Of a stretch of DNA of 64,000 bases, positions 989-58,112 are shown piece after piece. Under the pieces are notes generated by a model, which saw only the letters and a list, made by a program, of their open reading frames with translations, was not told the DNA's origin and searched no databases. The stretch spans positions 33,479,501 to 33,543,500 of the forward strand of contig JAYKYS010000001.1 of assembly GCA_036924285.1 (NCBI GenBank). Direction: 5' to 3'. The stretch is from Asterella californica. Taxonomy: Eukaryota; Streptophyta; Marchantiopsida; Marchantiales; Aytoniaceae. Every line of letters begins with the position of its first letter. Positions within the stretch are counted from its first letter, which is position 1. The translations under genes and the position numbers were made by a program.

Positions 989-1272
989 TGTCACATCAGT
1001 TTGGTAGCTCGGCTAGGTTGACCGAGTGCGAAGTGGCGGACCCCGATAAGACCGTTAGGGCAAGTTGGTGAGAGTGCCCACAAGGGGTATACTTCGCAGG
1101 TAGGGGCTTGGAGACCTCAGTTCTTCAAGTTGAGCCTTCAAGCTCCTGGCTATGGTGGGTAGTCTTGAGAGTGAGATCTGGATTCTCTGCGAGCACACAG
1201 AGTGGATTTGGCTCGACTGTAGTGATTGTCTAGTGCCTGTTGGCAGATGGAGTGAGTATATACATTGTTATC
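989..1272 (+). repeat. Element A terminal repeat A1 (5' end)
   Basis: This 284-bp block starts TGTCACATCAG and ends near CATTGTTATC. It matches 10884-11166 with about 98% identity. Unlike an ordinary 5' LTR it is not joined to the 108-bp B block; the internal region follows directly (ACTTGAAGAACTCGG). Element B has the same arrangement at its 5' end (46110-46401). No TGGTATCAGAGC-type initiator-tRNA primer site follows it, in contrast to element C. Confidence 0.8.
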
Positions 1273-3023
1273 ACTTGAAGAACTCGGATCGAGAGGTCTG
1301 GTTTAAGGATTTCAGGTCGCAGATTGCTATCGGTGGTATCTCCGGAGTTGGCAGATCGTAGGTATCTTCGATTTGCGGGTGCGCGCGTGCGTGGAGTGAC
1401 TTGTTTTGGTGTTGTGATCGATTGCTGTGTGTATGGGTGTCGTCTGAACCTGTTCGAGGTCGATTTGGTGGTGAGGTAGTGCGGAAACGCTGCTGAAATT
1501 TCGTGGAATGTGTTGAAGTGACCAATTTCGGGCTGAAGTGCGCATTTCGGCTGGCAGACGAAATAGTCGACAATGTCAGACCGATGTGGGCTCCTTGGAA
1601 GCGCGCTGGGAAGACGGTCCTAGTGCAGGAAGATTCACGAAGTTTGGTCGAGCCGTTTTTAAGTTATGAGAAGTCGAAATTTCTGATGACGAGTTTTGTG
1701 ACGGGTTTTAGGTCAGCAGAAGTGCGTCGGGGAGTGTCAGATTGGATTGGGTCGATAATTTTTGGATCTGAGGAGTGCAGTAGGTGCGCGCCGGGAAGAC
1801 GATTCCAATGCAACCAAAATCGTTCGATTTGGTGAAGGATCGACGAAGTTACAAGCCCGAAGAAGGTCGCAGGTTGGCCAAAATATGACGTAAATCCTGT
1901 CTGCGAGTTCCAAATTGGCTGATTTCGACAATTTGGTGCAATTCCGACCCTGAGTTGCTGTTTTGGGTGTTTTCTCGTCGTACTCGTCCTTCTTTATGGT
2001 GTTTGGCCCGGGTACTCTTCTCCAAGCGGAGCGGAGCGGAGAGTGAGCGGGAGTTGCGTGTTAGGAGACGTTTAGAGACTTCGAGGAGCAGAGGTGTGTG
2101 AGTGCGGAGGCGTGAGAGCGGAGTGAGAGAGTGCGGAGGCGGAGCCCGAGCCCGCGCCCGCCGTAAGCCAGCTTGCTGGCGTGCGTGAGAGAGGTATCCA
2201 AGTTCCAGTTGTGTGGGAAGTGTAAAACCAGTAAGTCACCCATCCCAACACTATTTCTGGACTTGGACGCTTAACTCTGTAGTCTCAACTTTGGCTGTAC
2301 CACTAGACCAATAGCTCTTAGTGTCTTACAGGGATGCGTGCAAGTACTTAGGGGCTGGTTTAAGGTAGTAGGAGACCTGCTCGCACGTTCCTAGAGGAGT
2401 GGTAAGGCGACCCCAGAGTACTAAGAGGAAGCTGCTGTTGTGGTAGTGTTTGCCTATACCGTAAAGACGCGTATGGAGGCAATTGGTGGCAGTTGTCTTA
2501 GATGAGCCCGTAGAGCTATCACGTTGATATTTTGGAGCTACTAGAGGTGTGGACGGCTAGTTAGTGACCTTAGGTGCAGGTTATGACAGTCGGTGATCAT
2601 ATATTGTGCATGTGATCATCGAAGAAGACGCGTCAGTCCGAGTGGGGCTGGGTTTCTCTTTATGTGAATGTTTGAGTGTGGAGGGTTATCGTTTGGACTT
2701 CTTGTGGTTGGAACCCCTCCATATTCTGCTTCCTGTTTGTGCGTCGCGTTTGCTTGTGTTGACGCTTGATTCCCAGAGTGAGTTCACTCTAGTGTGCTGT
2801 CAGTAGTGAGGCTGGAGTGATGATCAGTCAGACTACCTTTGTTTCTCTCACGGTGCAGTTGGAGTGACGACGAACAAACCGTGAGAGGCTGCTTGTGGTG
2901 ATGGCAGGTACAGGTTGCCCTTACCTTGACTGTCCTAGTAGGGGATAGGTGAGCTCAGTAGGAGCGAGGATAGGCAAGTTGTAGTTACGGTGGTGACGGG
3001 GATTTCGACATTCGGGTTAGAGA
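1273..3023 (+). other. Long untranslated leader of element A
   Basis: About 1.75 kb separate the A1 repeat from the first gag frame. Open frames here (for example 1503-1835) show no recognisable domain. I see no matching reading frame in the corresponding leader of element B (44578-46110), although the nucleotide sequence is clearly related. A GA/GC-rich low-complexity stretch lies at about 2025-2165, and an antisense 5S/tRNA-like segment at 2230-2312. Confidence 0.6.
2230..2312 (-). repeat. 5S rRNA-derived and tRNA-like segment, antisense in the leader
   Basis: Read on the minus strand, this holds TTAAGCGT, then 13 nt, TAGT, then 4 nt, GGATGGGTGAC. These are the words, order and exact spacing of the 3' half of plant 5S rRNA, including its internal promoter region. 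Just upstream on that strand is TTGGTCTAGTGGT, resembling a tRNA A-box region. Element B has the same segment at about 45281-45366, likewise antisense to the element. It could be an old SINE captured before A and B diverged, or a selected polymerase III promoter. Confidence 0.55.
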
Positions 3024-4016
3024 GTGTGTTCGCGAGATTCTATCACCACGGAGTTCTCGGGAGGTTCTGGTGGGGACTTCTCGGATAGTGGGTATACACG
3101 GAGTGGGGTGAGGTACCGACTATCTACACCATTGCCGTTGGTTGTTCCAGAGGACGAGTCAGACGCAGATAGTGCGTTTTCTGGTGGTGAGTCTAGTGTC
3201 ATCACATCGTTGTTGTGGGACATGGACGAGATCTATGAGGCCACAAAAGGACCTCGACGTTACTCGGCTACGGTGGGTACCATTGAGCTGGATGACTTTA
3301 TCCAGGAGTTCGACAGTTGGTGCGATCTGCAACAGATGCGGAACCCACAATTGTTCACACCTTTCATGGCGTGGAAGAGTTTGTTTCAGCACTTGGAGGG
3401 ACCGCCGATGGACGATTACCACGAGTTCAGGCGAGACTACGGTGTTGAGATTGAGTTGTGGAGACAACATTGGTCTCCCAACTACGTTTCTATCACTACT
3501 GGTGCAGTTTCGGGAGGCGTAGCACCTTCGAGGTCAGGTGCCAGTAGTAGTGGTACATCCACGGGTGGCGGAGTCTCTACTACCAGCGGTGCGTCCACTA
3601 GTAGTGGAGCAGGTGGTAGTGCGAGCGGGATACCACCAGAGTTTAACCCTGTGGTTCATTTCTTCCACTGTTTGAGGAAGAATTATCAGGGTGTGCGGAC
3701 CGACAAGTTGAAGAGTCTGCAGGAGTTCCAGCGGAAGACTGGAGAGAGCCTACGCGAGGCGTTTACTCGCATGAGGCGGTTGATCAGCGTTACTCAAGGA
3801 GTGACGGAAGCACAGGCAGTCCAGTTTTGGTATGGGATACTAGACCGGGAGCTGCGTAGGAGAGTCAGAGATGCCACTCTCCTTAGAGACACCGCTCCGA
3901 CATTGGCGGTTGTCTTTAGTTTGGCTGAGCGGATAGAGCTCAACATGGTAGAGGAGAGGGTGGTGACTGCAGGGTTCAGCAGAGACGCATCACATGGGGC
4001 GACCTCCCCACTATGA
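3024..4016 (+). pseudogene. Element A gag (capsid), interrupted
   Basis: This is a 330-codon frame. The N-terminal third is acidic and Ser/Gly-rich (VPEDESDADSAF). A low-complexity Gly/Ser/Thr linker covers residues about 155-205. A retrotransposon gag core follows, with FFHCLRKNYQG, LQEFQRKTGESLREAFTRM and LDRELRRRV. It would form the particle shell and bind RNA through the zinc knuckles encoded further on. The frame stops in a ~320-bp insertion that is absent from element B, where the same gag runs straight on toward the zinc knuckles. The start is the first ATG; element B supports coding homology from about this point (TEFSGGSG and TESSGGSG). Confidence 0.8.
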
Positions 4017-4335
4017 CACTATAGGACAAGTGCGGAGCTCTAAATATGCTTTCCAAAAGTATGTAACTTTGTTGACCATCGCTGATTGGATGCATGATGA
4101 AAAGTCATGCACAAAGATCTAAAGATGCTCCTCAAAAGACGTATTAGTGTGTTGTCGTCTTTCGATTGGATAGCGTGAAAAGTTAACACTTTACAAAAGC
4201 TAAAGTAGGAGAATCTCTTACTTTAGTAAAGTAGAACAAGTAATGTGTGTGCTATTCTTAAGTCTTAGTAGCCTTTAGAAGTTTTACTATTTTGGATTGC
4301 GCACTTACCATGAGGTAATGTAACTTAGTGAAAGA
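4008..4335. mobile_element. ~320-bp AT-rich insertion in gag (MITE-like)
   Basis: Compared with element B, in which gag sequence is continuous across this point, element A carries about 320 extra bases. The insert is much more AT-rich than the surrounding gag. It begins near CACTATGACACTATAG and ends near TAACTTAGTG, so its ends resemble weak CACTA-type inverted termini. It also contains a small hairpin around 4200-4235. No coding capacity and no convincing target duplication are seen. It shifts the gag frame, so it disables this copy unless removed. Confidence 0.55.
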
Positions 4336-6508
4336 TTCTCGAGGATCACAAGCTACGCAACAGCGAGGTGGTGGTGGTGGTGGTAAGGATCGTGCTGAGC
4401 ACTCACGATCCCATGGAGGTGCTGGAAGATCTGGTGGGCAGAAGCCCATGCCGTCCTTCTCTAGTCAGCAGCAAGCAGGTCCTTGCTGGACGTGTGATGG
4501 TCCTCATCAGCAGAAGGATTGTCCACAAAGGAGAGGTAGTTATGAGACATCTGGGACGTCTCAAGCGGTGCCTAGGCAGTGTGAGCACTGCGAGCGACCA
4601 GGTCACAGTAGTGACCGTTGTTTTGATCTCCATCCGGAGCTACGACACGGGAAGACTGATCGTGGACGAGGCGGAGGAGCTCAGGGAGGCCGTGGTGGTC
4701 GAGCTGGAGGTAGAGGTCCAGCACCTGGGAGAGGATCAGTTGGTCCACCGCCTGCTACGACGTCAGAAGCAGGTATGGCTGCTCGGATTGAGCAGTTGGA
4801 GCAGAGAATAGCTAGTATGACTATGGCTCAACGGAGATCTGGTGGAACAGAAGCTTCCACGTCTTATGGAGGAGAAGGAGGTGACTTCGACTTCATGGCT
4901 GGTGTGGCTGGTGTGGCGCAGATTGAGACATCTGCGGCAGTGACTCGAAGTGCAGTACGTATCTCTGAGCCACGAGGTGCGTCAGTGGAGTTGGATCCAC
5001 AACGCGGGGAGGCTGGTAGACAGGCCAGACTTCCTCAATCGTTCACGCTATCAGAGGCATTAAGGACCACTTCTATGGTTCCTAAACGGTCTATCGATGG
5101 TGCAGTGGAGTTGGAGACATCGACATCCAAGAGTGGGGATAATGCGAATCAACCTTCGACGTCTGTGGATGCGACGTCGAATCCGATGTTGGGGGCGGCT
5201 ACAGTAGTTTTGCGAGCCCCACTATTTTCAGCCACGGATATGAGGGCATTGGGAGTCAGCTTGGCTCCAGTGTTCCAGTTGGCAGCCACGCTCAGTGAGA
5301 GCGAGGATGTGGTTACCTCTAGTGCTGAGGTGGTTCAGCAAGAGGCGGTAGATGTGTCCATGGAATCGAAGATCAAGACAGCTACTAGTGGTACTTGGCA
5401 AGCAGCGGCTGCCAGACTAGATGAGTTATCAGCTAGGCCAGCAATTGACCGTGCTGGATTGGCACCAGGTGTGGTGTTGTTGGACAACAGAAGTGGTATC
5501 TTCTGTTTGGTGGCACCTTCAGGGAAGGTGTATCGACCACAAAAAGTGTTGTTAGACTCTGGAGCTCAACCGTTGATGTTGGGGAAGGCGGCGTGTATCG
5601 GTTTGGGTCTAAGGAAGTCCGAAGTAGAGAGATGTCCATTCCAGCTACATACATCTCTAGGGAGATCAGGAGGTACAACTCTACACATGACACGCGAGTT
5701 GCTGACTGTGAGAGTTAGACCAGATCATCCCACGGATGGTTCCATGGTGAGGGCCAAGGCTATCGTTACGGCCGCGGAGTCTTATGATGTATTGGTTGGA
5801 GGTGCTGTATTATACCCTATGGGGTTCGTGATCGACTATTGGGCGGAGACAGCATCTTACAGACCAGGTTGGCAGTCCGGTGAGAGACGAGTGAGCCGCT
5901 TACCAGTGCGGTTTAGTGCTAGAATTGAGGCAACGGAGCTTACATCAGGGACGATGGCATCCGTTGCAGGTTTCAGTTCGGTCATCACTTGGCCAGGCGA
6001 GTTGTTAGAGGGCAATGCCCATGCGGAGGATACTCCGGTCTTTGAGGAGGTGGAGGACATGCCTAGCATGTCTATGTTAGTACAATCTGCTTTGGATGTT
6101 CCACTTTGGAGTTCGAGTGGAGAGTTGCAGCAGTATGCCGATCGGTTGGTACAGCAAGCTTGGAGTGAAGCCTTTGTACCACAAGTAGAAGAACATCGGG
6201 GTGTTCCTGTTACTGGTCCTGTGACCTTAACACCGTTGGATACGACTCCCATTGCATGGCAGTATCCAAAAGAGGGTGTGTGTATGCTGGAGCTGTTTGG
6301 AGGGATCAGCATAGGTTTGGCTGCGGTATTGCAGGCAGGCATACAAGTACATCGATACTTGTATGTGGAGAGAGATGAGGTCGCAAGACGTGTCTCATTG
6401 CGTCATGTGGCGCGTTTGGTGCAGAGATATCCTGAGTTGTTGCCTATATCAGCTGTTAGAGGATACCAGCAAGCATTACCGTCAGATATTTTGCTGCTGG
6501 GGACGTAG
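4334..6508 (+). pseudogene. Element A nucleocapsid, aspartic protease and N-terminal part of DNA methyltransferase
   Basis: The frame continues gag after the insertion. Two zinc knuckles come first (CWTCDGPHQQKDC and CEHCERPGHSSDRC), then an RGG-rich linker and a long Ser/Thr-rich spacer. The retroviral-type protease has its active site at about 5549-5566 (LLDSGAQP) and a later DVLVGG...YPMG segment. From about 6275 the DNMT domain begins with methyltransferase motif I, the AdoMet-binding loop (MLELFGGISIGLA). The frame ends at TAG 6506-6508, 78 codons into the methyltransferase. Element B has a sense codon (CAA, Gln) here, so the TAG is a mutation in A. I infer that protease and methyltransferase were made as one polyprotein. 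Confidence 0.85.
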
Positions 6509-7360
6509 GATCTCACGTTTGTTGACATCATTCACTTGGTGATAGCCGGATGGCCATGTCAAGGTCACACGCGTGCTGGGAGAGGTCAGGGTTTACATGA
6601 CCCGCGATCTAGGATGTTTTGGGAGATGTTACGAATCTTACGACATCTCCAGATGCATCAGGTGGATTCTCCAGCGTACATCTTGGAGAACGTTCCTTTG
6701 TTGGGTGATGCTCGTGCACATATGATGACGAGTGTGCACCAAGTGCGGTCCTGGATCGGACCGGCAGTGGTGTTAGATGTAGCGAGAGTGGGATCTCGTG
6801 CACATCGTCCACGGTTGTGGTGGACGAACTTGTTACCAAGAGAGGTGCTCAAGCGCGCACACGATGCAGTGAGACGACCAACGCACCTCACAGTGGATGG
6901 CATCTTGGATGCAGGACGACGATCTCAAGTAGTGAGAGTCGTCGATAGGTCACCCATGGCAGTTGTGAACCTAGTGGGACAACCTATGGCAGCGTTACCC
7001 ACTTTGGTGAGCTTTCCAGCGTCACATGCTTACAGAGATGGAGGACCTGGGCTTGTGTGGGATGCTCGGTTACAACAGTTGGTGGAGTCCAATGCCGACG
7101 AGAGAGAGAGAGCGATGGGTTTCCCTACGGGTACGACTGCAATAGCTTCGGTGTCAGAGGCTTCACGTCGTCAAGTGTTGGATCAAGCAATGGACTTGAA
7201 CTGCTTGACATGGATTGTTAGTCTTGGATTGGCTGAGCAGCGTCGTATGCGATTGACGGGTGTTACTGCTCGGACACTCTTGAGCTCTTTGCCTACAGGG
7301 TCGGTGGAGGCAAAGGCTGGGGGCGAGGCACGTGGAGTTCGTCATCCTTGGACAAAATGA
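6509..7360 (+). pseudogene. Element A DNMT3-like C5-cytosine methyltransferase, catalytic part
   Basis: Same frame as the preceding segment, after the TAG. It carries motif IV with the catalytic Cys (AGWPCQGHTRAG, PCQ at 6554-6562), motif VI (ENVPLLGD), motif VIII (SRAHRPRLWWTNLLP) and the C-terminal ERERAMGFP and LDQAMDLN segments of motifs IX-X. The AHRPRLWW form resembles DNMT3 rather than DNMT1 or CMT enzymes. The domain would transfer methyl from AdoMet to C5 of cytosine. All catalytic motifs are present, so apart from the TAG upstream the enzyme looks competent. The segment ends at TGA 7358-7360, which element B shares. Confidence 0.85.
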
Positions 7361-7483
7361 GATGTCATAGGAGAGAGTGTGGAGCTTGCAGCTAGAACTG
7401 CAGAAGTTTTTCGTACAGTAGCGGTGGAGGTTGTTGGTGGTGAGCAGAAGAAAACTGCTCTAGAGGCTGCAAGATAGCAGTCA
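7358..7483 (+). promoter_or_regulatory. Two conserved in-frame stops between methyltransferase and RT, one in leaky-stop context
   Basis: The reading frame continues across TGA (7358-7360) and TAG (7475-7477) into RT without a frame change. Both stops occupy the same positions in element B (complement of 30899-30901 and 30782-30784). The TAG is followed by CAGTCA in both copies, fitting UAG-CAR-YYA, the tobamovirus-type readthrough context. Readthrough would give a fused methyltransferase-pol product. Alternatively both copies descend from one already-defective source. Confidence 0.45.
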
Positions 7484-7507
7484 ACGACTTCGTCTTCTAC
7501 CTCTAGC

Positions 7508-8382
7508 ATGGTGACAGAGGATACTTGGGAGCCAGAGATCGGACCCAAGCTTATAGGAGAGGAGAGACGAAGAGTTCAGAGATTCCTGAAGAGCTATAAG
7601 AATTGTTTTGCTTTTAGTATGAAGGATTTGGGTACCTTGAAGGGACCGGGTATACGGATCGACTTGGCTAATGACACGCCAATCTTTCGACGTCCTTACA
7701 GGTACAGTGACATGGAGAGAACCTTGATCCAGAGTAGGACTCAAGACTTGGTGGAAGCTGGGTTGGTGGAGATGTCGCATGGAGAGTATGCATCTGCCAC
7801 AGTTATGTCAGCAAAGAAGGATATGTATGGCAACTACACGGATAGGCGTATGTGTGGAGACTACCGTCTTATCAATCGGCAGACGAAGTCCGATAAGTAT
7901 GACATGCCGACACCTGAGGAGATCTTTGATGCAGTGGGGCATGTGAAGGTCTTCAGTACTTTGGATCTTCGAGCATGGTATCATCAGTTGCCGGTGAGAG
8001 AGGAAGATAAACCCAAGACAGCATTCTGGGGGATTGACTCTCACGGCAAGGATTGTTTGTATCAGTGGCGGTTCTTACCATTTGGGTTGAAGAACGCCCC
8101 TGCTGAATTCCAAAGAGTGATGGAGAGGATCCTAGCAGGATTGGATTTTGTCAGATGCTATATTGACGACATCTTAGTCTATAGTGCTACAGTGGAGGAG
8201 CACGAGAGACACTTACATGATGTGTTCGAGCGGTTGAGAGCTCATGGGTTGAAGTTACACCCTGGGAAGTGCAAGTTCTTCCAGGAGTTGGTAGAGTATC
8301 TAGGTCACACCATCTACCCAGGTGGGTTGGGTGTTCAACAGACGAAGGTCGAGGCCATTACACGTATTCCACGCCCCACAGA
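7508..8382 (+). pseudogene. Element A reverse transcriptase, 5' part
   Basis: The segment encodes the fingers and palm of a Ty3/gypsy RT. Visible motifs are SAKKDMYGN, MCGDYRLIN, FSTLDLRAWYHQL, FLPFGLKNAPAEFQR and the catalytic CYIDDILVYS (codons 8156-8185). A GHTIYPGG segment follows. The enzyme would copy element RNA into cDNA. At about 8380-8385 one base is missing compared with element B (GATGTGGTCGAG against GATGTGAGTCAAG), so the frame runs out at 8437 and the thumb region continues in another frame. The start is given at the first ATG after the shared stops; the true N-terminus is unknown. Confidence 0.85.
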
Positions 8383-10086
8383 TGTGGTCGAGTTCGAGCA
8401 TTTGTTGGTTTGGCGAACTTTTATCGTCGATACGTGAAAGGATTTAGTGCAATTGCGAAGCCATTGACCAAGCTGATGAAGGTGGACCAGGAGTGGCAGT
8501 GGGAAGATGAGCAAGAGCGAACTTTCGTGGAGCTCAAGGATAGGTTGACATCTGCTCCCATCTTGAGGAGACCCGTTAGGGGACGTCCTTTCCAACTGCA
8601 CACTGATTGGAGTATGTTGGGACTTGGAGCAGTGCTGACTCAGCATGATGATGAAAAAAAGGAGTTTGTGGTGGCGTATGTCAGTCGCTCCAACAATTCA
8701 GCGGAGGCGAGGTACAGTTCGTACGAGGAGGAGTGTTTAGCTGCAGTGTGGGCTGTTGCACACTTCCGATGTTATCTGTTTGGGAACCCCTTTACTCTCA
8801 TCACTGATCACCAGCCGCTCAAGTGGTTGATGAAGTCCGACAAGCTTACAGGGAAGTTTGCACGATGGGCTCTGATCTTACAGGAGTATGACTTCCAGGT
8901 AGTGCATAGATCGGGAGTTGCAAACCTAGATGCTGATGGGTTGAGTCGTAACCCATGCACGAGTCAACAGGATCAGACTGGGGCTCGATGGCATGACGAG
9001 GTTGATGAGGAGATAGTGCCGGGGTGGCATGCATCTGCCTTTCTTTGTGTGTTGGCCATGAACTCTAGTATGGAGGGCCAAGTCGTATCTTTCTCAAGTG
9101 AGAGAGTAGATGACGAGTCTCCAGATCCTGAGGGTGGAGATGGTGTTCCAAACCAGCGAGATATCCATGACGATGTGACCGTGATGGAGTATCTACGTAC
9201 TGGCGTGGTGGTAGACACAGTAAGTGCCAAGGAGCGAGATCGTGTCCTTCAACGAGCGAAGAGATTTCGACGAGAAGGACGACATGTACTTCGAGTGTGG
9301 GATGATGGGAGAGTACGGATAGTGTCACACCCATCCCAAAGGGCACAGTTAGTACGACATGCTCATGAGGAGTTGGGACATTTTGGAGTGAAGCGCACGC
9401 ATAGCTTACTCCAAGGACAGTATTGGTGGCGTGGTATGCACGTCGATGTGCAAAAGTTTGTTGCACGATGTGTGGTTTGTGATCGAGTACGAGCATCGTT
9501 TAATGCTCCTACTCCACAGTTACACCCCTTACCGATTATGGGGTTGGGTTACTGTTGGAGTTTGGATTTTGCGGGACCCTTACCGTTGACTGTACGTCAC
9601 CATCGATATGTGTTGGTGATGATGGAGCATTTTTCCAAGTGGATTGAGTTGGTGGCATTACCAGACAAGGCGAGTGAAGGGACAGCGTATGCATTCTTAG
9701 ATCGAGTGTTGAGTCGTTTTGGAACACCAGCTGAAGTGCTGACAGACCAAGGTACAGAGTTCCTTGGTGAGTTTCAGATCTTGTGTGATCAGGCGCTGAT
9801 TGATCATCGAACTACATCTCGAGATCATCCTGAGGCGGATGGTTTGGCGGAGAGGGTAGTTCAGACGATGAATAGAGGATTGCGTAAGTATGGCTTGCAG
9901 AAAGGCCACTTGGGAGACTGGGATGTGCAGTTACCATGGTTGGCTATGGGCTACCGTTTTAGCCGACAAGCGTCTTTGGCTTCCTTCTCACCGTATTTTC
10001 TATTATACGGTCGAGATCCAGATCTACCTTCGGCCATTCGTCGTGATTCTGCTGAGGTGCTGAACCTTGATGACCCGGATATGTGA
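8383..10086 (+). pseudogene. Element A RT thumb, RNase H and integrase
   Basis: In the frame after the deletion, the RT connection (LANFYRRYVKGFS) leads to RNase H (LHTDWSMLGLGAV, ARYSSYEEECLA and LITDHQPLKWLM, about 8598-8840). Integrase follows. It has an HHCC zinc finger (H...HEELGHFGVKRTH, then CVVCDRV) and the DDE core: Asp in SLDFAGP, Asp in LTDQGTEF and Glu in GLAERVVQ. Integrase inserts the cDNA into host DNA. The frame ends DPDM at TGA 10084-10086, immediately followed in frame by the C-terminal domain. Element B has the same TGA. Confidence 0.85.
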
Positions 10087-10602
10087 GTGAGAGCATGTTC
10101 TCAACGAGCAGAGACATTTCGGAGAGTCATGCCCATGGCTTTTGAGAATCTAGCGATTGCTCAGCATAGAGACACGTTGCGATATGCAACTATCCGAGGA
10201 GGAGGTTATCGACCATCGATTCGCAGGTTTCATCCTGGCGATTATATCTATCTGCAGCAGACTGCACCGACGACGTTGGATGTGACCGCAGGACGCACTA
10301 TTTTACGAGTGCGTGAGGTGTTACCTTCTGGAGTACTCATGTTAGAGGGCCGTGATGGTGTTGTTTGGAAGGACCATGTGCGTAATTGCGCGTCATGTCA
10401 TCTTCCCAACATCGATGGTACCGTTGACCCAAGCTTGGCAGTTGTACGAGCAGGCTTGAGGTGTATGTTGTGTGGGTCTGTTGGTGGAGCAGCCCGTATG
10501 TTGGTGTGTGATAGTTGTTCGAGAGGTTGGCACATGTCATGTTTGACTCCGCCTCTCACTGTCATTCCTATTGGACAGTGGGTTTGTCCTCGATGTATAT
10601 AG
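10087..10602 (+). CDS. Element A integrase C-terminal domain with PHD finger
   Basis: This in-frame continuation of integrase is open for 171 codons. The first part (ENLAIAQHRDT, RFHPGDYIYLQQ, VREVLPSGVLMLEGRDG) is the SH3-like/GPY-type tail typical of gypsy integrases. The last ~50 residues form a PHD finger: CMLCGSVGGAARMLVCDSC, then WHMSCLTPP, then WVCPRCI, giving a complete Cys4-His-Cys3 zinc set. PHD fingers often bind the histone H3 tail, so the role is probably to steer integration to a chromatin state, as chromodomains do in chromoviruses. It is separated from the integrase core by a TGA shared with element B, perhaps originally a Trp codon. Which histone mark is bound cannot be told from the sequence. 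Confidence 0.8.
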   Translation: MRACSQRAETFRRVMPMAFENLAIAQHRDTLRYATIRGGGYRPSIRRFHPGDYIYLQQTAPTTLDVTAGRTILRVREVLPSGVLMLEGRDGVVWKDHVRNCASCHLPNIDGTVDPSLAVVRAGLRCMLCGSVGGAARMLVCDSCSRGWHMSCLTPPLTVIPIGQWVCPRCI

Positions 10603-10764
10603 CAAAGATAGCCGATTAGATCTTTGCGTGGTATGGATTGCAGACAGGCGACTAACGATGGGGCAATGTAGCACCCGGCCTCCTGATCCTTGCACCCATG
10701 AAGGTGTATATCACGTAGTTGAGATATGAAGCTATCTGGAGTTAGAGGGACCTAACCGCCAGTT

Positions 10765-10773
10765 AGGGGGGCG
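10765..10773 (+). promoter_or_regulatory. Polypurine tract of element A
   Basis: A G-rich purine run (AGGGGGGCG) lies directly before the B1 block, as expected of the primer for plus-strand synthesis. Element B has AGGGAGGCG at the same place. Its position makes B1, not A2, the first part of the downstream repeat. Confidence 0.6.
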
Positions 10774-10881
10774 ATTGTGGTACACTTGTGTATGTGTATG
10801 ACATCGTCCATGTGTTATGTGTATGTGTGGTGTTCCTTTGACAGCGATGTATGTTGTGTAACGATGTGTATGCGCACGACA
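10774..10881 (+). repeat. Element A terminal repeat B1
   Basis: This 108-bp GT-rich block starts ATTGTGGTACACTTG and ends GCGCACGACA. It lies between the polypurine tract and A2. It is identical to B2 at 11167-11274 and absent next to A1. Confidence 0.85.
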
Positions 10882-10883
10882 GC

Positions 10884-11166
10884 TGTCACGTCAGTTTGGT
10901 AACTCGGCTAGGTTGACCGAGTGCGAAGTGGCGGACCCCGGTAAGACCGTTAGGGCAAGTTGGTGAGAGTGCCCACAAGGGGTATACTTCGCAGGTAGGG
11001 GCTTGGAGACCTCAATTCTTCAAGTTGAGCCTTCAAGCTCCTGGCTATGGTGGGTAGTCTTGAGAGTGAGATCTGGATTCTCTGCGAGCACAGAGTGGAT
11101 TTGGCTCGACTGTAGTGATTGTCTAGTGTCTGTTGGCAGGTGGAGTGAGTATATACATTGTTATCT
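10884..11166 (+). repeat. Element A terminal repeat A2
   Basis: This is the downstream copy of A1, beginning TGTCACGTCAG. It is flanked on both sides by the 108-bp B block. A2 plus B2 together form a 391-bp unit bounded by TG and CA, the size and shape of a single LTR. Confidence 0.85.
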
Positions 11167-11274
11167 ATTGTGGTACACTTGTGTATGTGTATGACATCGT
11201 CCATGTGTTATGTGTATGTGTGGTGTTCCTTTGACAGCGATGTATGTTGTGTAACGATGTGTATGCGCACGACA
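11167..11274 (+). repeat. Element A terminal repeat B2 (3' end)
   Basis: Identical in all 108 positions to B1. It ends with ACGACA at the junction with host DNA. Perfect identity suggests a recent insertion or gene conversion. Confidence 0.85.
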
Positions 11275-20951: not shown

Positions 20952-21716
20952 TGCAGACTCGAAGATCCTGCTGAATTGACGAGGTGGATCAAATTGTTTG
21001 GCATCTCTGTCAAATCGAATTTTGTAGATTAGTTTCACCGCCACCAGTTGTAGCTTTCGAAGGTCTGTTGGATCAGTGATGCAGCAATCAACCAGTCAGA
21101 CGACGCTAAGTGCTACGAGCTGCACTGAGAATGTCAAAGAGCTGGAATCCCCGATGAAACCGATTTTTCGGCCGGAGGGTGTAGGAAATTGTATATGCTA
21201 TTATGAGAAGTTTCCAAGTCGCAAACAGCCTGCAGCAGAAACTGGGGATTCGCCGAGCAGGGCTTTAAGGAATGCCGTGGACGGCCTAGACAGCAGAGTG
21301 TTACATAGTGATGTAAAGGATATAGTCGATTTAGCGTGCCTAAGATACGCATGGTTCAGTCATATTTTTCTTGCCAGTCACATTCACGTGATACTGTTGA
21401 TAAAAACGCAAGGGAGTTTTGTTGATTGTCAAATTCTCCCCTTATACTGTAAAGTACTTCGTAACGACTGCCATAAACAAATCTCACTAGTTTATAATGC
21501 AAATGCCGTTGGTCCTTCTCGCCTGCGTCTTATTTTACGCCTAAGTATCGAACTTGTCATAAGAAACTACTCATTGCAGTTCACGTTTTATAGCATTGGT
21601 GTAGAAACAAGTTGTGACAGAATAATCCTTAGTTTAGTTGGAAAGGAATGGAACTTTACAAGTTAATAGATCGTCCATGCATGTTCTCTGGTTTGAGTCA
21701 GTTTTGAATCTCTGAC

Positions 21717-22018
21717 CAGATCGGTGAAGTCAGATTTAAAGTATGATCTTCCAAGGACTTTTCTGCTTTTATGTTATACCCTTCGAGTAGTTAATCACTG
21801 GAGGCTGAGCAGATCAGTGAAGTCAGAGCTAAAGTAAGATCTTCCAAGCACTTTTCTGCTTTTATGTTACACCCTAGAAATAGTTGATCACTTGAGGCTG
21901 AGGTGAATATGGAGGTTGAGCAGATCAGTGGAGTCAGAGCTAAAATAAGATCTTCCAAGCACATTTCTCTTTCCTATGTTACACCCTTGAAATAGATGAT
22001 CACTTAGAGGCTGAGGTG
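21717..22018. repeat. Three tandem copies of a ~93-111-bp repeat
   Basis: Copies start at about 21717, 21810 and 21921 with CAGATC.GTG.AGTCAGA, and share AAGATCTTCCAAG and TTATGTTACACCCT. The second unit is 18 bp longer. The array lies downstream of the At1g01500-like gene. Confidence 0.7.
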
Positions 22019-25738: not shown

Positions 25739-26981
25739 AGTGATGGTGAAAGAAAAAAGTTCTCATGTAGACTTACTTCGGTTTTCGTTACGAGTTTCAT
25801 CCTTTGGACTCGTTTGAGTTCCAATTGTTCATGTGTGTTTTGTGGTAGCTACATTTAGCTAAAGACTTGTAAATGGATATTGGTTGGATCGAGATTTGAC
25901 TCATGGTGATACTATTGTTAAACCTTTTTGTTAGCAAAGAGGTGCTTCTCTTGCTTTGAGCTACGCTTCGATAGTTTGATTCTAGGTTGAAATTCAGAGA
26001 CTTGCTTCAAGAGGTTGGGTGCAGATTATAGACCACTCAGGTGTATTTATCAGTTTTGTGTCTATAGAGAAAAGTGAGAGTTTATATAAAGTGAAGGGTG
26101 GTTATATCGATGAACTGACGAATGAGACACTTTATGTAGTTATCATCAACTTTAGATTATATGTTATCTAACATTAAAATATCCAATTCAATTATTTAGA
26201 CATCTATCACAAGTTAAGCTTTCAAATGCTTGTTTCTTCACATTATGCATCAACTAATACGTTTAGTACAAATATTCTAGCTTTATGTTGTGTTCAAAAT
26301 ATCTCTCCATGTTAGAAAATAAAGACTAAATACTCAAACAATTAAATCATTCTATATACTCCAGACATACTCACTATAGCAAATTCTTATAATAGTGTGA
26401 GTCATATTATTTTCACAAATTCTTCATTAATGTGAATGAGTACATAGCGTGGGTCACACTTATACATGACCATCCAAATGTAGTTCACACTAAGTGAATA
26501 GTGTAACTGACCATAGTGTAGCGTAACATTCAACAACGTAAAACACTTGTGAAATTTCCACGTACAAGCGTAACGTCACTAGCCGTCAACATAACTCAAC
26601 GGGCAACGAGCGTAATGCCAAAAACTTCCGTGAAAATATTTGCACATGCGTAAGCCACCCTGCGGGCAGTGGATTATCTTACACTTAGGTGGGACTCAGA
26701 GATTTATTTCCGTATCTGATTTATTTCCGTACAGTTTCCTTAAAGTATTCCACCCTTAGTCTGACTCAACTGCTCATAATAGGTTATGTTTTCACTCTTG
26801 TAGAAGAAATGGACGATGTTAATGTTTGTACCACGCTCTGTACCGAACACTCCTTTCCATGGAAGATGAATACCTTTGGTACGAAACTGCTCGATTCCAC
26901 TATGGTATAGATAGATATCACAAGTCCATATCTACTATTTCAGTTTTCTTAATTGTAGTGAAAACTAATTTTTATTAGTGC

Positions 26982-27089
26982 TGTCGTACACATACACATC
27001 ACTACACAACATACATCACTGTCAGAAGTACACCACACATACACATAACACATGGACGATCTCATACACATACACAAGTGTACCACAAT
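26982..27089 (-). repeat. Element B terminal repeat B2
   Basis: About 108 bp, related to B1 at 27384-27491 and to the B blocks of element A. It forms the 3' end of element B. Confidence 0.75.
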
Positions 27090-27382: not shown

Positions 27383-27383
27383 C

Positions 27384-27491
27384 TGTCATGCGCATACACA
27401 TCGTTACACAACATACATCACTGTCAGAGATACATCACACATACACTTAACACATGAACGATCTCATAGCCATACACAAGTGTATCACAAT
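27384..27491 (-). repeat. Element B terminal repeat B1
   Basis: First B block after the polypurine tract (AGGGAGGCG on the minus strand). It differs from B2 at about a dozen positions. Confidence 0.75.
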
Positions 27492-27657: not shown

Positions 27658-28173
27658 CTATGTACATCGAGGACAAACTCACCGTCCAGTAGGAACAACA
27701 CTGAGAGGTGGAGTCAAACATGACATGTGGCAACCTCTAGAACAACCATCACACACCAACATACGGGCTGCTCCACCAGCAGACCCACACAACATACACC
27801 TCAAGCCCGCACGTACAACTGCTAAGCTTAGATCAACGGTATCATCAATGTTGAGAAGCTGACATGGCTCGCAATTACGCACATGGTCCTTCCAAACAAC
27901 ACCATCACGGCCCTCTAACATGAGAACTCCAGAAAATAACACCTCACGCACTCGTAAAATAGTGCGTCCTACGGTCACATCCAACGTCGTCGGTGCAGTC
28001 TGCTGTAGATAGATATAATCACCAGGATGAAACTTGCGAATTGATGATCGATAACCTCCTCCTCGAAGAATCGCATATCGCAACGTGTCTATATGTTGAA
28101 CAATTGCTAGGTTCCCAAAAGCCATAGGCATAACTTTCCGAAATATCTTTGCTTGTTGAGAACATGCGTTCAC
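27658..28173 (-). pseudogene. Element B integrase tail and PHD finger, broken
   Basis: Homologous to 10087-10602 of element A. The GPY-like part (RKFHPGDYIYLQQ, VREVLFSGVLMLEGRDG) and most of the PHD finger (CMLCGSAGGAARMLVCDGC, CHMSCLTPP) can be read. The conserved Trp before the last Cys pair has become TGA (TGG to TGA), cutting off VCPRC. It follows the integrase core across the same in-frame TGA as in A. Confidence 0.8.
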
Positions 28174-37446: not shown

Positions 37447-37771
37447 GACGCTTCGGTGAGCGAGAACTTGAGATAGCGGCTGAAGGCTGGACGCTTGAGG
37501 AGGGACGCGAGACACGGAGCGGATCAGCGTTTCTAGGTGAACACTTGGAGCGATGGCCGACGACGGACAGAGTCCAAGAGGAAGACCAAGAAACGAGGAG
37601 CGGCTAACGGGAGCAGATCGACTTGAGCTAGCCCCGAGGTACAGTCAGAGGACGACAACCGACAACCTTCGCCCCAACGTCAAGAAAGCCCAGTACCGAC
37701 TGCGGCACCAGTGGCAAGATGGAGCCTTGTCAACGGTGCCCAACGATTTAGGTGCGTGAAGTCAAGGAGCT

Positions 37772-38527
37772 TTGTATGCAGAACTCATCAAGATGATGAA
37801 GATCATGCAGGAGGGTATGACCTCCAGGAATAAACGTATCGCTGAGCTTGAGGTAAGCCAAAGAAGTTCCTCGTCTACCAGGAAGCTTTGTAAGACGAAT
37901 TTACCGATCTCATTTTCAGGTATAGGACGGGCTCGTAAGGTTAAGGATTTTTTAACTGAGTTGGACCTATACTTTGAGGCGCAACAAGCTAAGGAGTCTG
38001 ACAAAGTGAGAGCGGCGGTTACATTCTTGAAGGACCATGCGCTTCTCTGGTGGACTGCATACAGGGATGAGCATGCCTTGTCCGTCTCGGCGCTTGGTTG
38101 GAAGGGGTTCAAGGAGTTGCTCGCGAGACGATTCACGCCGGAGTATCAAAGGATTCAAGACAGTGTTGAGTTGGTGAGACTGAAGCAGACGGGGACCTTA
38201 AGCGCTTATGTGCGCGAGTTCAGTGTCAAACTAGACTCGTTCTCCAAATGGACTGAGGAGACCAAGATATGTATATTCATTGGGGGACTCAAGTCCAGCT
38301 CAGAGAAGGCTCTCTTTCGGATGCCGAAGCTACCTGAGACATGTGTCGAACTTTTGAAGCTAACGGAGCGAATTGGAGACGACGAAGTCCAGCAACAGCA
38401 ACCTTTTGAACCACGCAGCACGGACAAGTTCCAGAAGAAGAACAAGGGCTTCAAGCGACAGTGGGATGGAGGTGAGAAAGATCGGAAGGATACTTTTGCC
38501 TCGGCAGCAAAGCGGCAGCAAACATGA
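37772..38527 (+). pseudogene. Element C gag
   Basis: A 251-codon frame with a retrotransposon gag domain: FSGIGRARKVKDFLTELDLYFEAQ, LKDHALLWW, FKELLARRFTPEYQ and LSAYVREFSVK. A basic tail follows. TGA at 38525-38527 stops it, and the frame reopens directly into the zinc knuckle, so the stop is probably a mutation. The predicted start is the first ATG; the true start may lie slightly upstream. Confidence 0.85.
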
Positions 38528-38803
38528 GTAAAACCTAAGAGGCAAACACCTCAGAAGGACAATGGTGCTAAGTTTACTTGCTACAACTGTGGCGAGGCGG
38601 GTCATATTGCTAAGGGGTGTACGAAACCTAAGGTTAGTAACTGTAGCATGAATGCGTTTGTTGCAAATGACTTGTTGGAGGGTCAGATGACTGTGACCTT
38701 GAGAACCACGAAGAAGACGCCGGGATTGATGTTCTTACAAGCCAAGGTTGCTAACCGTGATATTACTTTTCTTGTGGACACAAGAACGACTCACTCTTCA
38801 TAA
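38528..38803 (+). pseudogene. Element C zinc knuckle and protease start
   Basis: In frame with gag: zinc knuckle CYNCGEAGHIAKGC (about 38580-38621), then FLVDTRTTHS where the aspartic protease site should read D-T/S-G. The Gly is Arg here. One missing base soon after shifts the frame. The protease cannot work in this copy. Confidence 0.8.
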
Positions 38804-38811
38804 GTCCAAAG

Positions 38812-40134
38812 TTGGTGAAGAAGTTGGGCTTGTCTACCTCCAAGGCAGACAAGCCTATTCAGGTGCGCTTTGCCAAGAGCAAGACGTACCAAACTTCTGA
38901 AGTGGTCTTGGACGTACGATTTGTGTGTGGGAAGTTGGAGTTCACAGAGAACTTCACGGTGTGCGAGATGGATGACATCCATGCAGTTTTGGGGAACAAT
39001 TTCTTGGACAAGTTTGAAGTGGAACTTAGGCGAAAACCTTTAAGGTTAAACGTTAGAGGTAAAAGGCAGAAGCTGGGAGTGAGGCTGATCCCGAAGGCAC
39101 GGAAAATTGACGACTTTGTAGTGAATTTGATCAAAGGTAAACAGATGGACTTCAACGACGGAGTCATGTGTTTGATGCGGGTTGCAGATTTGATGACGGG
39201 TGACACACAAGAGGAAAAATCAGGAGACGCGACTAAACTTCCGGAGGTGCTTCGTGAAGTGATTAAGGAGTTTGAGGATGTCTTGACGGATGAGTTATCT
39301 GCTGAGTTACCTCCAAGGAGGGTGGTGGATCACAAGATTGAGGTCTTGCCAGGATCAGAACCACCTTCCAAAGCCCCTTACCGACTCAATCAGGTGGAAC
39401 ACCTTGAGTTGAAAAGACAACTCGGCGAGCTATTAGCGCGGGGGTATATTCGAACCAGCAAGTCACCTTATGGAGCCTCAGTTCTCTTCGCAAAGAAAAA
39501 GGATGGGAAGTTACGACTCTGCGTAGATTATCGTGCACTCAATAAGATGACGGTGAAGAATAATTATCCCTTGCCAAGGATAGACGACCTCTTTGATAGG
39601 TTAGCGGGCACAAAGTACTTCAGCAGGATAGACTTGAAGTCAGGATATTACCAAATCCAGATAGCTAGCCCAGATGTTGAGAAGACCGCTTGTCGAACCA
39701 GATACGGATCATTTGAATTCGTGGTGATGCCATTTGGACTCTGCAACGCCCCTTCGACATTCACTACATTGATGAACACAATTTTTCGCGAGGAGATGAA
39801 TGAGTTTGTCATCGTTTACATCGACGACATCTTGATCTACTCCAAAACCTTGGAGTCGTACGCGGAGCAGCTAAGAATGGTGTTGACGAAGCTGCGGGAG
39901 CATAAGTTGTTTGCCAACATTGACAAGAGTGAGTTTGGTTTGGAGCGCATTAACTTCTTGGGACATGTCATTAGTGCAAAAGGAGTCGGCCCGGATATGC
40001 AGAAGGTGGACGCGATTGTGACTTGGGAGCCTCCGACTACAGTGAAGGGGATGCGACGATTCTTAAGATTGGCGCAGTTCTACCGCAAGTATGTGAAGGG
40101 GTTTTCAAAGATCACGAAGCCGTTGACGGACTAG
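38812..40134 (+). pseudogene. Element C protease end and reverse transcriptase
   Basis: This 440-codon frame begins within the protease (VLGNNFLDKFEVEL) and carries a full RT: LARGYIRTSKSPYG, LFAKKKDGKLRLCVDYRALN, RIDLKSGYYQI, VMPFGLCNAP and the catalytic VYIDDILIYSKT. It ends with AQFYRKYVKGFSKITKPL at TAG 40132-40134. The frame continues in phase into RNase H. Confidence 0.88.
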
Positions 40135-40632
40135 ACGGGCAAAGACGCACAGGTAAGTTGGACCAAGGAGGTGGATGATGCGTTTCAGACGATCAAAGCT
40201 ATTTTGTCAAAGACGCCAGTATTGAAGCTGCCGGAGTTCGACAAACCATTCGAGGTGCACACGGATGCGAGCGACTATGCGATTGGCGGAGTGTTGGTGC
40301 AGGATGGAAAACCTGTAGCGTACGAAAGCAAGAAGCTATCTGGGATAGAGAGTCGATGGCCGACTCACGAGAAGGAACTATTTGCGGTGGTTCATTGCTT
40401 GAGGAAATGACGGCATTACTTGGGACTTCACAAAACGCAAGTGTATACTGACAATATTTCGCTCAAGTACTTTGAGACACAAGATCGGGTGACGCCAAAG
40501 CAACTACGGTGGCATGATACCTTGGCACTCATGAACATGGAATTAATCCACAAAGCGGGAAAGGACAATGTGGTTCCTCACGCCTTGAGTCGCAAGGAGG
40601 AATATCTTCCATCGTCAACACAGATTTTGTGA
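40135..40632 (+). pseudogene. Element C RNase H
   Basis: Motifs VHTDASDYAIGGVL, WPTHEKELFAVVHCLRK and VYTDNISLKYF are in order. A TGA (40408-40410) splits the domain where related elements have Trp (LRKWRHYL), a TGG to TGA change. Another TGA ends the segment at 40630-40632. Confidence 0.85.
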
Positions 40633-40635
40633 GCT

Positions 40636-41577
40636 ATGTATCCTAAGGAGTCAGACTTGGAGAGGCGAATACGTGAAGGTTACATGAGCGATGACCAAGC
40701 GAAGGAGTACCTGGAACAACTCAAGCGAGGAGTGAAGTTGCAGAACATGCAGCTAAGACATGGTTTACTCATGTTCAAGCAAAGTCGGGTTTATGTGGGA
40801 CAAGGAAAACTTAGGACCAAGTTGTTAAGAGAATCTCACGATGCGCCCTTATCAGACCATAAAGGAGAAAAGTCCACTTTAGCAGTGATAGCTAAAAAGT
40901 TTTATTGGCCCCACATGAAAGACGACGTTGCCCACTTTGTGAAAACATGTGTAATCTGTCAAGCGAACCGCGTTTCTTATGAGAAGAAACAAGGGTTGCT
41001 TCATCCTCTGCCGATTCCAGCCAGACCTTGGGAAAGCATTAGCATGGACTTCATTACATCTCTGCCTGACTCGAACGGATACAATGCGATATTTGTGATA
41101 GTTGATCGGTTTAGCAAACTAGCGAAGTTTGCTCCGACTTTGGACACTACAACAGTGTTCACGACTTCTCGGTTGTTCCTAGATACTTGGTGGCGTTCAC
41201 ATGAATTACCCCGGAGTATTATTTCAGATAGAGACTCTAAGTTCACAAGTGCCTTTTGGAAACACTTGTTCCAAAAATTGGGGACTAAATTAAAATTTAG
41301 TACCACCTTTCATCCGGAAACAAATGGTCAAACAGAACGAGTTAACTCGGTTCTGAATCAATACTTGAGGAATTATGTGAGCGCGGACCAAAGCGATTGG
41401 GCGGAGTGGCTTAGTCTTGCGGAGTATTGCTACAATTCCACGAAGCATTCGGCAACCGGCGAATCGCCTTCCTTGCTGACTTACGGACGTGAGCCAGAAG
41501 GGCCTCTTGACTTGACTCTTGCAGGGAGTTCTACATCGGCACGACCAAGAACACGGCAAACATCAGCTGAAGAGTAG
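40636..41577 (+). pseudogene. Element C integrase
   Basis: HHCC finger (H...SDHKGEKSTLAV, CVICQANR), then the DDE core: Asp in SMDFITSLP, Asp in ISDRDSKFTS and Glu in GQTERVNSVL. HSATGESPSLLTYG closes the core. It ends at TAG 41575-41577, followed in frame by the C-terminal domain. Confidence 0.88.
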
Positions 41578-57784: not shown

Positions 57785-58112
57785 GTCAGGGAGAATCGTT
57801 GCCCATATTGCTTGCATTTGGCGGAGTTGTGCCGCCGAGCGGTTTGTGCCGGTTGCAGCGCTGGTAGTCTGGCGGGCCATAAATCCTAGAGATGGAGGGC
57901 AATTAGCGGGGAGTTTAGCTGAACAAACGAAGTTCGGAGTTGTTGACCAAACTACGCCCAGCGAGCCACGCTTCCTGTCATGCAAATTGCAATAGCTGCT
58001 CTGCCGGCCCGTTCCGCTCCATTTGTTGGTATATTGCTAGATCTTCCGAGTGTTGGGAATTTTAGCCTCCGCCGGTGAAGAAGCAGTGGGAAGAAGTAGA
58101 GTTCCGGGCGAA

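Follow-up and report, generated by a model that had tools for sequence, protein, structure and literature searches.

Can a single retrotransposon carry both an enzyme that writes DNA methylation and a finger that reads chromatin? The question is raised by a 64,000-nucleotide stretch of the Asterella californica genome (contig JAYKYS010000001.1, positions 33,479,501 to 33,543,500; hereafter the window), in which a sequence-only reading had placed a DNMT3-like methyltransferase (DNMT) and a complete PHD finger in one Ty3/gypsy element at 4334–10602. Both domains were confirmed to lie in one element, a decayed gypsy-type element of 10.3 kb that spans 989–11274 on the plus strand and encodes GAG, protease, the DNMT, reverse transcriptase (RT), RNase H, integrase, a GPY domain and the PHD finger, in this order. 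The order was identical in the well-preserved copy L027. The earlier interval captured the middle of the element but was incomplete: the real ends are at 989 and 11274, and GAG probably begins at ~3222. The features of the window, including the two open reading frames of the element (ORF1 and ORF2), are listed below.

989–1277, plus strand: 5′ terminal repeat A1, found by direct-repeat mapping; starts with TGTC
1278–3221, plus strand: long 5′ leader; its limit is the probable GAG start at 3222, placed by the N-terminus of the Marchantia homologue P0001
3222–4007, plus strand: first part of GAG, from the homologue domain map; broken here at 4008–4336
4337–6250, plus strand: remaining GAG, CCHC-like knuckles (~4580) and aspartic protease (DSG at ~5555)
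6260–7300, plus strand: DNMT3-like cytosine-5 methyltransferase (LELFGG at 6287, PCQ at 6542, ENV at 6671, AHRPRLWW at 6794)
7475–7483, plus strand: ORF1/ORF2 boundary TAG CAG TCA, of the Type I readthrough form UAG CAR YYA
7478–10083, plus strand: ORF2 with RT, RNase H, H2C2 and rve integrase; frame change at ~8380 and stop at 10084–10086 here
10087–10461, plus strand: GPY-type integrase C-terminal domain; limits approximate, name taken from the homologue domain map
10462–10602, plus strand: C4HC3 PHD finger, closing ORF2
10775–10881, plus strand: repeat B1, ending in GACA
10884–11167, plus strand: repeat A2; the B1/A2 junction is GACA-GC-TGTC
11168–11274, plus strand: 3′ terminal repeat B2, ending in GACA
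34294 down to 26981, minus strand: second, more decayed copy (PHD at ~27664–27798; B repeats at 26981–27089 and 27383–27491)

Pfam profiles for DNA_methylase (9e-9), RVT_1, RNase H, H2C2, rve and PHD (3.7e-11) were matched consecutively in the window frames at 6509–10599, and the N-terminal part of the DNMT is encoded in the frame ahead of 6509. The zf-CCHC profile was only weakly matched in L027 (0.81), and the protease profile PF13650 was matched in the homologues P0028 and P0031. The window copy is damaged by the insertion in GAG at 4008–4336, by the frame change and by in-frame stops at 6506–6508 (within the DNMT domain), 7358–7360 (downstream of it) and 10084–10086; no matching pair of 4-bp duplications was found in its flanks. 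In the second copy, the DNMT, RT, integrase and PHD remain recognisable, and GAG residues 1–195 were unmatched in the stretch compared.

We searched the genome (516.7 Mb, 773 contigs) for further copies. PF00145 gave 123 scored places out of 1250 candidates, most of which were taken as copies of the window element family. Twenty copies, a sample biased to intactness, were chosen from the 28 places with open frames of at least 1000 residues. In L027, ORF1 encodes GAG, CCHC-like knuckles, protease and DNMT, and ORF2 encodes RT, RNase H, integrase, GPY and PHD (GAG, protease and GPY were assigned by comparison with homologues). Eight of the 20 copies have an ORF1 of 1368–1371 residues, a single stop and a same-frame ORF2 of 1041 residues; in L024 the two are 1371 and 1038 residues, and in the remaining 11 one or both ORFs are shortened or broken. 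The PHD segment was present in 18 of these DNMT-selected copies and was undecided in L010 and L013, in which the 3′ end of the element falls outside the stretch examined; no intact copy lacking either domain was found among the 20. Ten further plus-strand PF00145 places were inspected. Six have a whole or partial PHD at or near the expected position; of these, one contains a stop, one has a different residue in place of the last Cys, and one is truncated at the edge of the stretch. Two places hit a different part of the element, so that their PHD is undecided, and the last two have no element sequence there.

A 36-base DNMT motif was found, with up to three mismatches, at 1537 genomic places (768 + 769), as against none for the reversed control, so that these matches are not due to chance and the family is indeed established, as the sequence-only reading had held. 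For the PHD, the best 150 of 2472 candidate places were scored with a 48-residue query; at least 147 were identical, and 34 sit within open frames of 1036–1041 residues. On contigs C1 and C2, an exact same-strand DNMT 36-mer lies less than 15 kb upstream of 22 among the 31 PHD places listed, at a distance of 3662–3808 bases in 20 cases and ~11.4–11.8 kb in two; among the other nine, three have a PF00145 DNMT match ~4 kb upstream and six have none listed. Among the matches listed, at least 30 DNMT-PHD pairs within 12 kb are on the same strand with the DNMT upstream, none has the DNMT downstream, and one is on opposite strands.

The domain pair was also examined in 175 relatives from three protein searches (49 with the DNMT query, 9 new with the PHD-tail query and 117 new with ORF2, for which the best 120 of 1468 were taken). 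Profiles built from the same families, and hence partly circular, detected the DNMT in 84 relatives and the PHD in 92; 40 proteins have the two together. A DNMT and a GPY domain with no fewer than 50 residues past GPY are found in 43 proteins, and 40 of these also carry the PHD; the count is 32/35 without the eight proteins found solely through the PHD-tail search, and all 16 matches of the DNMT query that reach GPY carry the PHD. No PHD was detected in the other three: P0085, in whose tail a degenerate PHD may be made out by eye, and two proteins with the label Tetstr1, taken here to mean Tetraselmis. Since the window copy is broken and has an insertion in GAG, one may ask whether the two domains were joined by chance nesting or assembly. 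We rejected this explanation as extremely improbable: the copy counts, the orientation of the pairs and the relatives all contradict it, neither domain comes from a separate insertion, and the pair is too widely shared to be a one-off accident.

The two domains are separable in relatives. Four Closterium DNMT proteins (P0125, P0135, P0168 and P0173) stop 23–30 residues past GPY without a PHD, and P0051, P0110, P0113, P0154, L094 and L095 have a PHD without a DNMT where a DNMT was detectable. As a separate observation, the PHD-profile match of P0154, which is gypsy-like, lies between RNase H and integrase rather than after integrase. P0037 (residues 1560–1881), P0034, P0141 and others carry extra C-terminal sequence, marked by DPWAGTG- and TSPWF-like motifs, that resembles adenine-type methyltransferases; in P0037 it matched Pfam MethyltransfD12 at 0.16 only, and T[ST]PW[FY] occurs in 6 of the 175 relatives.

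The identification of the methyltransferase as DNMT3-like was borne out by sequence and by fold. DNMT3A was the best match in the PDB by sequence (6.5e-11, 2.6e-11), and an AlphaFold2 model with a mean predicted local distance difference test (pLDDT) score of 73.7 (below 50 in residues 113–120, in most of 241–276 and at the ends) matched DNMT3A with template modeling scores of 0.61/0.80. What we take to be catalytic motifs I, IV (PCQ), VI (ENV) and VIII occur in order. The catalytic Cys is kept in 100% of the 66 sequences with a residue at that position, and in the ENV motif Glu is kept in 97% and Asn in 96% of 69 sequences. Pfam listed no PWWP or ADD domain in ORF1 of L027. In a tree of 69 DNMT sequences (L027 and 68 homologues with at least 250 aligned residues) with two outgroups, the branches of host Dnmt3 and of human DNMT3A attach between two groups of DNMTs, a placement that involves two outgroups only and long branches. 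Judged from motif order, locus L001 of the host genome resembles a Dnmt3 gene of the host itself, and L002 resembles a rearranged DRM gene. A scan of viral contigs gave 27 loci that match the DNMT profile, at 27–46% in the best segment.

We measured selection as the pooled ratio of nonsynonymous to synonymous substitution (dN/dS), which is descriptive because the pairs are non-independent. The values were 0.23 for GAG, 0.20 for protease, 0.18 for DNMT and 0.09 for RT (20 copies each), 0.15 for RNase H and 0.11 for integrase (19 copies each), and 0.20 for GPY and 0.29 for PHD (18 copies each), the last being built on few changes. The DNMT is under purifying selection.

In 91 PHDs including that of L027, the first seven Cys/His zinc ligands are kept in 90–91 and the eighth is Cys (82) or His (9); the C4HC3 ligands are accompanied by the conserved Trp. 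By sequence the finger is closest to CHD4, DPF2, KMT2C, KDM5B and PHF12. A model (mean pLDDT 80.1; predicted template modeling score 0.44) gave fold matches of low root mean square deviation (rmsd) to DPF2/3, BHC80 and BAZ2A, with UHRF1, ATXR5 and KDM5B PHD1 near; the top-ranked matches (PHF1 and the TTD-PHD of UHRF1) were not used, their rmsd being above 11 Å. Several PDB entry titles among these matches name unmodified H3, and the other matched fingers are presumably readers of the unmodified H3 tail as well. By eye, no aromatic residues occur in L027 at the positions that we take to form the aromatic cage of H3K4me3 readers, and a PHD of the H3K4me3 type was rejected on this ground. A Gly is found two residues ahead of the zinc-binding His in 81 of the 91 PHDs. 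The interpretation put forward with the sequence-only reading is supported in part, and its claim that the finger reads a histone mark needs correction: the H3K4me3 cage is missing, and by its sequence and modeled fold the finger probably senses unmodified H3. No chromodomain was listed by Pfam in ORF2 of L027; the PHD stands in its place.

Because the PHD directly follows GPY, it could instead serve the integrase C-terminus purely as a structural zinc module, without any histone function, and the four PHD-less Closterium proteins, which are gene models, indicate that it may be dispensable there. We consider this doubtful, since by sequence and fold the finger matches the histone readers CHD4, DPF2, KDM5B, BAZ2A and UHRF1, and its C4HC3 core is kept across deep divergence.

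The earlier placement of the DNMT between protease and RT was correct, but it had overlooked a stop that puts the enzyme on the Gag side. The DNMT shares the Gag frame, and RT, integrase and PHD lie after one in-frame stop; TAG CAG TCA separates the two ORFs in all 20 copies and in the window. UAG CAG UCA satisfies UAG CAR YYA, the Type I readthrough motif (PMC2754532, PMC11166343), which is read through in plants at 32% in tobacco mosaic virus and 11% in beet necrotic yellow vein virus (PMC2754532). The match to the tobamovirus motif is exact, and the candidate readthrough site stands here at the boundary between Gag-PR-DNMT (PR, protease) and RT-IN-PHD (IN, integrase) of a retrotransposon. 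A diverged element, L091, has PR-DNMT, TAG CAA TCA and then a same-frame RT-RNase H-IN-GPY-PHD of 1047 residues, with a 66% identical tail; its contig is filed in a cyanobacterial genome bin and was taken for a eukaryotic contaminant of that bin. Synonymous variation fell to 0.007 in the ~50 codons ahead of the stop (L027 5338–5487, the end of ORF1) and to 0.000 in the last ten, compared with ~0.06 elsewhere, while amino-acid changes persisted (dN/dS 3.35 over the last 60 codons). This missing synonymous change suggests a nucleotide-level signal ahead of the UAG.

Alternatively, the UAG may not be read through, and ORF2 may be made by splicing, by reinitiation or from a subgenomic RNA. The RNA stem 3′ of the UAG is weak (z of −1.1 in L027, −2.5 in L091 and −0.4 in the window; non-significant in L027 and the window), and the relatives P0031, P0072 and P0106 have DNMT and RT in a single open frame without a stop, from which it also follows that the Gag-side placement of the DNMT is not general. 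Such expression seems to us quite unlikely in view of the exact Type I motif in the same frame of two diverged elements, an ORF2 that is open straight after the stop and the low synonymous change ahead of it. The stop is a candidate leaky UAG.

The element termini are TGTC...GACA. An exact 4-bp target duplication was found in 14 of the 16 copies with both ends mapped (L011 and L014 were one base off), and among the 15 copies in which A1 was compared with A2, five show full identity across 294 bases. Omitted from both counts were L009 (A1 not found), L010 and L013 (3′ end outside the stretch) and L025 (A1 motif in another sequence piece); L020, without A2, entered the duplication count only. 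The family is abundant and recently inserted. The ends of integrase type (TG..CA) with a short target duplication and the Gypsy Pol order RT-RNase H-integrase with H2C2 and rve were both present. Two full direct long terminal repeats (LTRs) around the internal part were not; instead the repeats are split as A1 ... B1-A2-B2, so that the name gypsy-type refers to its proteins alone and the element is not a canonical LTR retrotransposon. The B1/A2 junction resembles a circle junction. L020 consists of A1, the internal part and B alone with a perfect 4-bp duplication, a structure that could also arise through recombination between B repeats. No primer-binding site was noticed by eye, a search aimed at one not having been made.

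In 19 copies, 415 of 594 private changes were C-to-T or G-to-A. Per site, and without a background control, such changes were most frequent in CHG (0.154), followed by CG (0.118) and CHH (0.090), and A/T transitions stood at 0.025. The two window copies gave the same context order, with 261 of 356 changes being C-to-T or G-to-A. The pattern is consistent with resident copies being methylated in every plant context, probably by the host, and bears in neither direction on self-methylation. This C-to-T-rich decay in all contexts would also suit a DNMT whose target is not the cDNA of the element but RNA or, in trans and as a means of counter-silencing or self-limitation, the host genome; RNA methylation has been discussed for the long interspersed nuclear element (LINE) type, as has self-limitation (de Mendoza 2018, PMC5890265). 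Such a target is unlikely in our view, since the fold matches DNMT3A, which acts on DNA, the shared Gag frame points to the particle, and even in the second type of element, in which the DNMT lies between RNase H and integrase, the enzyme is still part of the replication polyprotein.

These two orders were placed on an RT tree of 104 rows (102 of the 175 proteins, which passed length filters, L027 and one other window element), built with a quick method and a midpoint root and having 29 open forks and some long branches. All 25 rows in which the DNMT lies between RNase H and integrase belong to one 30-row group (Shimodaira-Hasegawa-like approximate likelihood ratio test 99), and all 20 rows in which it lies before RT belong to the other 72 rows (fork support 87). 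Because the PHD is downstream of GPY under both orders, it probably predates their split, and the DNMT probably either moved or was captured twice. The hosts named among the listed matches are Marchantia polymorpha, Sphagnum fallax, Calypogeia fissa, Riccia sorocarpa, Klebsormidium nitens and Closterium. For Calypogeia and Riccia, the recovered parts are outside the DNMT and PHD regions. In Marchantia and Sphagnum, the DNMT is present and the proteins end short of the PHD position, so the pair is not established for these two. Transposon-encoded DNA methylases have been stated to be absent from land plants such as tracheophytes (PMC6338049); retrotransposon-type DNMTs are among the proteins annotated from the bryophytes Marchantia and Sphagnum.

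Capture of DNMTs by retrotransposons has been reported for dinoflagellates and Klebsormidium (PMC5890265), and DNMT3 in LTR Copia and DIRS elements is mentioned, with citation of that 2018 paper, in PMC12344493. The closest known system is KnitGypsy-Dnmt3 of K. nitens (de Mendoza et al. 2018, PMC5890265), which shares with our family the Gypsy domain set, a DNMT3-type enzyme and DIRS-like repeats, paired with Gypsy domains according to a figure legend; its Ka/Ks is <0.2. Its DNMT is placed in the Pol ORF, whereas that of the window element is in the Gag-PR frame upstream of the stop, so that the window element is a relative and not the same type. The K. nitens protein P0112 (DNMT-RT-RNase H-IN) is 47% identical to ORF2 over 90% and ends ahead of the PHD position; its RT-tree neighbour P0093 and the K. 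nitens protein P0119 carry a PHD. The word "PHD" is absent from the main text of PMC5890265, figures excluded, and from the searched text of PMC9033089. SymbioDIRS-Dnmt3 and SymbioLINE-Dnmt of dinoflagellates are likewise retroelements with a captured DNMT, and CG methylation in yeast was reported for the SymbioDIRS enzymes (PMC5890265). DIRS elements rely on a tyrosine recombinase (PMC5890265); the window family differs from them in its rve integrase and its 4-bp target duplications. Pfam listed no recombinase in either of the long frames of L027, and no dedicated search for one was made.

Chromoviruses carry a reader-type domain, the chromodomain, after integrase. The window family resembles them in this position and differs in having a PHD for the chromodomain and, in addition, a DNMT. 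PHDs occur in ORF1 of CR1/L2 LINEs, for which a targeting role was proposed (PMC4120745), and in the Ginger1 transposase (PMC2836005); these are other element classes, and the excerpts of both papers make no mention of a DNMT. At the level of titles and abstract openings, in a search light on subscription literature, the combination of DNMT and PHD was unreported. New here are the Gag-frame DNMT, the conserved UAG and the PHD link; DNMT capture itself was already known.

Elsewhere in the window, a different gypsy-like element at 37760–41577 has GAG-, RT- and integrase-like frames, and no DNMT or PHD was noticed in it, although no search was aimed at them. Exons at 58041–59117 resemble, by eye, a host protein disulfide isomerase gene, and 21712–21897 is a tandem pair of 93-base units that are 86% alike.

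Taken jointly, the evidence inclines us, with some reserve, to a model in which a captured DNMT is packaged at the Gag level, a minority of ribosomes read through the stop, the cDNA is methylated and the PHD guides integration. Most ribosomes would halt at the UAG and yield abundant Gag-PR-DNMT, which would bring the methyltransferase into the particle; minority readthrough would give Gag-PR-DNMT-RT-IN-PHD. The packaged DNMT could methylate fresh double-stranded cDNA before integration, and the PHD, tethered to the integrase, may bind nucleosomes with unmodified H3 tails and so steer or stabilise integration. Enzyme activity, histone binding and readthrough are each predictions here. Several results weigh against this model. 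The DNMT-PHD pair is not obligatory in relatives, some of which also lack the stop, and the stem 3′ of the UAG is weak. The PHD dN/dS is built on few changes, and in the window-copy comparison of the PHD the ratio was 0.93 (2 synonymous and 6 other changes). The order of C-to-T contexts fits host silencing and is not evidence for CG-specific self-methylation; the flanks of 18 copies had no likeness that would suggest a shared integration target, save in one pair. Finally, the DNMT of KnitGypsy gave no methylation in yeast, a result that its authors deemed inconclusive (PMC5890265).

A further reading, which we consider less likely than not, is that the element has rebuilt a DNMT3-like machine in two parts, in which catalysis resides at the Gag level and the integrase carries the sensor for unmodified H3; methylated cDNA would in this way be delivered to H3K4-unmethylated chromatin. 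The PHD would play in trans the role that the ADD domain has in DNMT3. If this is true, new copies would look like resident silent DNA, and the pair would be ancient and widespread in green plants and algae. The DNMT part is also found in annotated proteins of Marchantia and Sphagnum, and a reader-type finger is linked to it across diverse elements. The family thus offers a model that can be tested, in which an element could methylate its own cDNA and select its chromatin.

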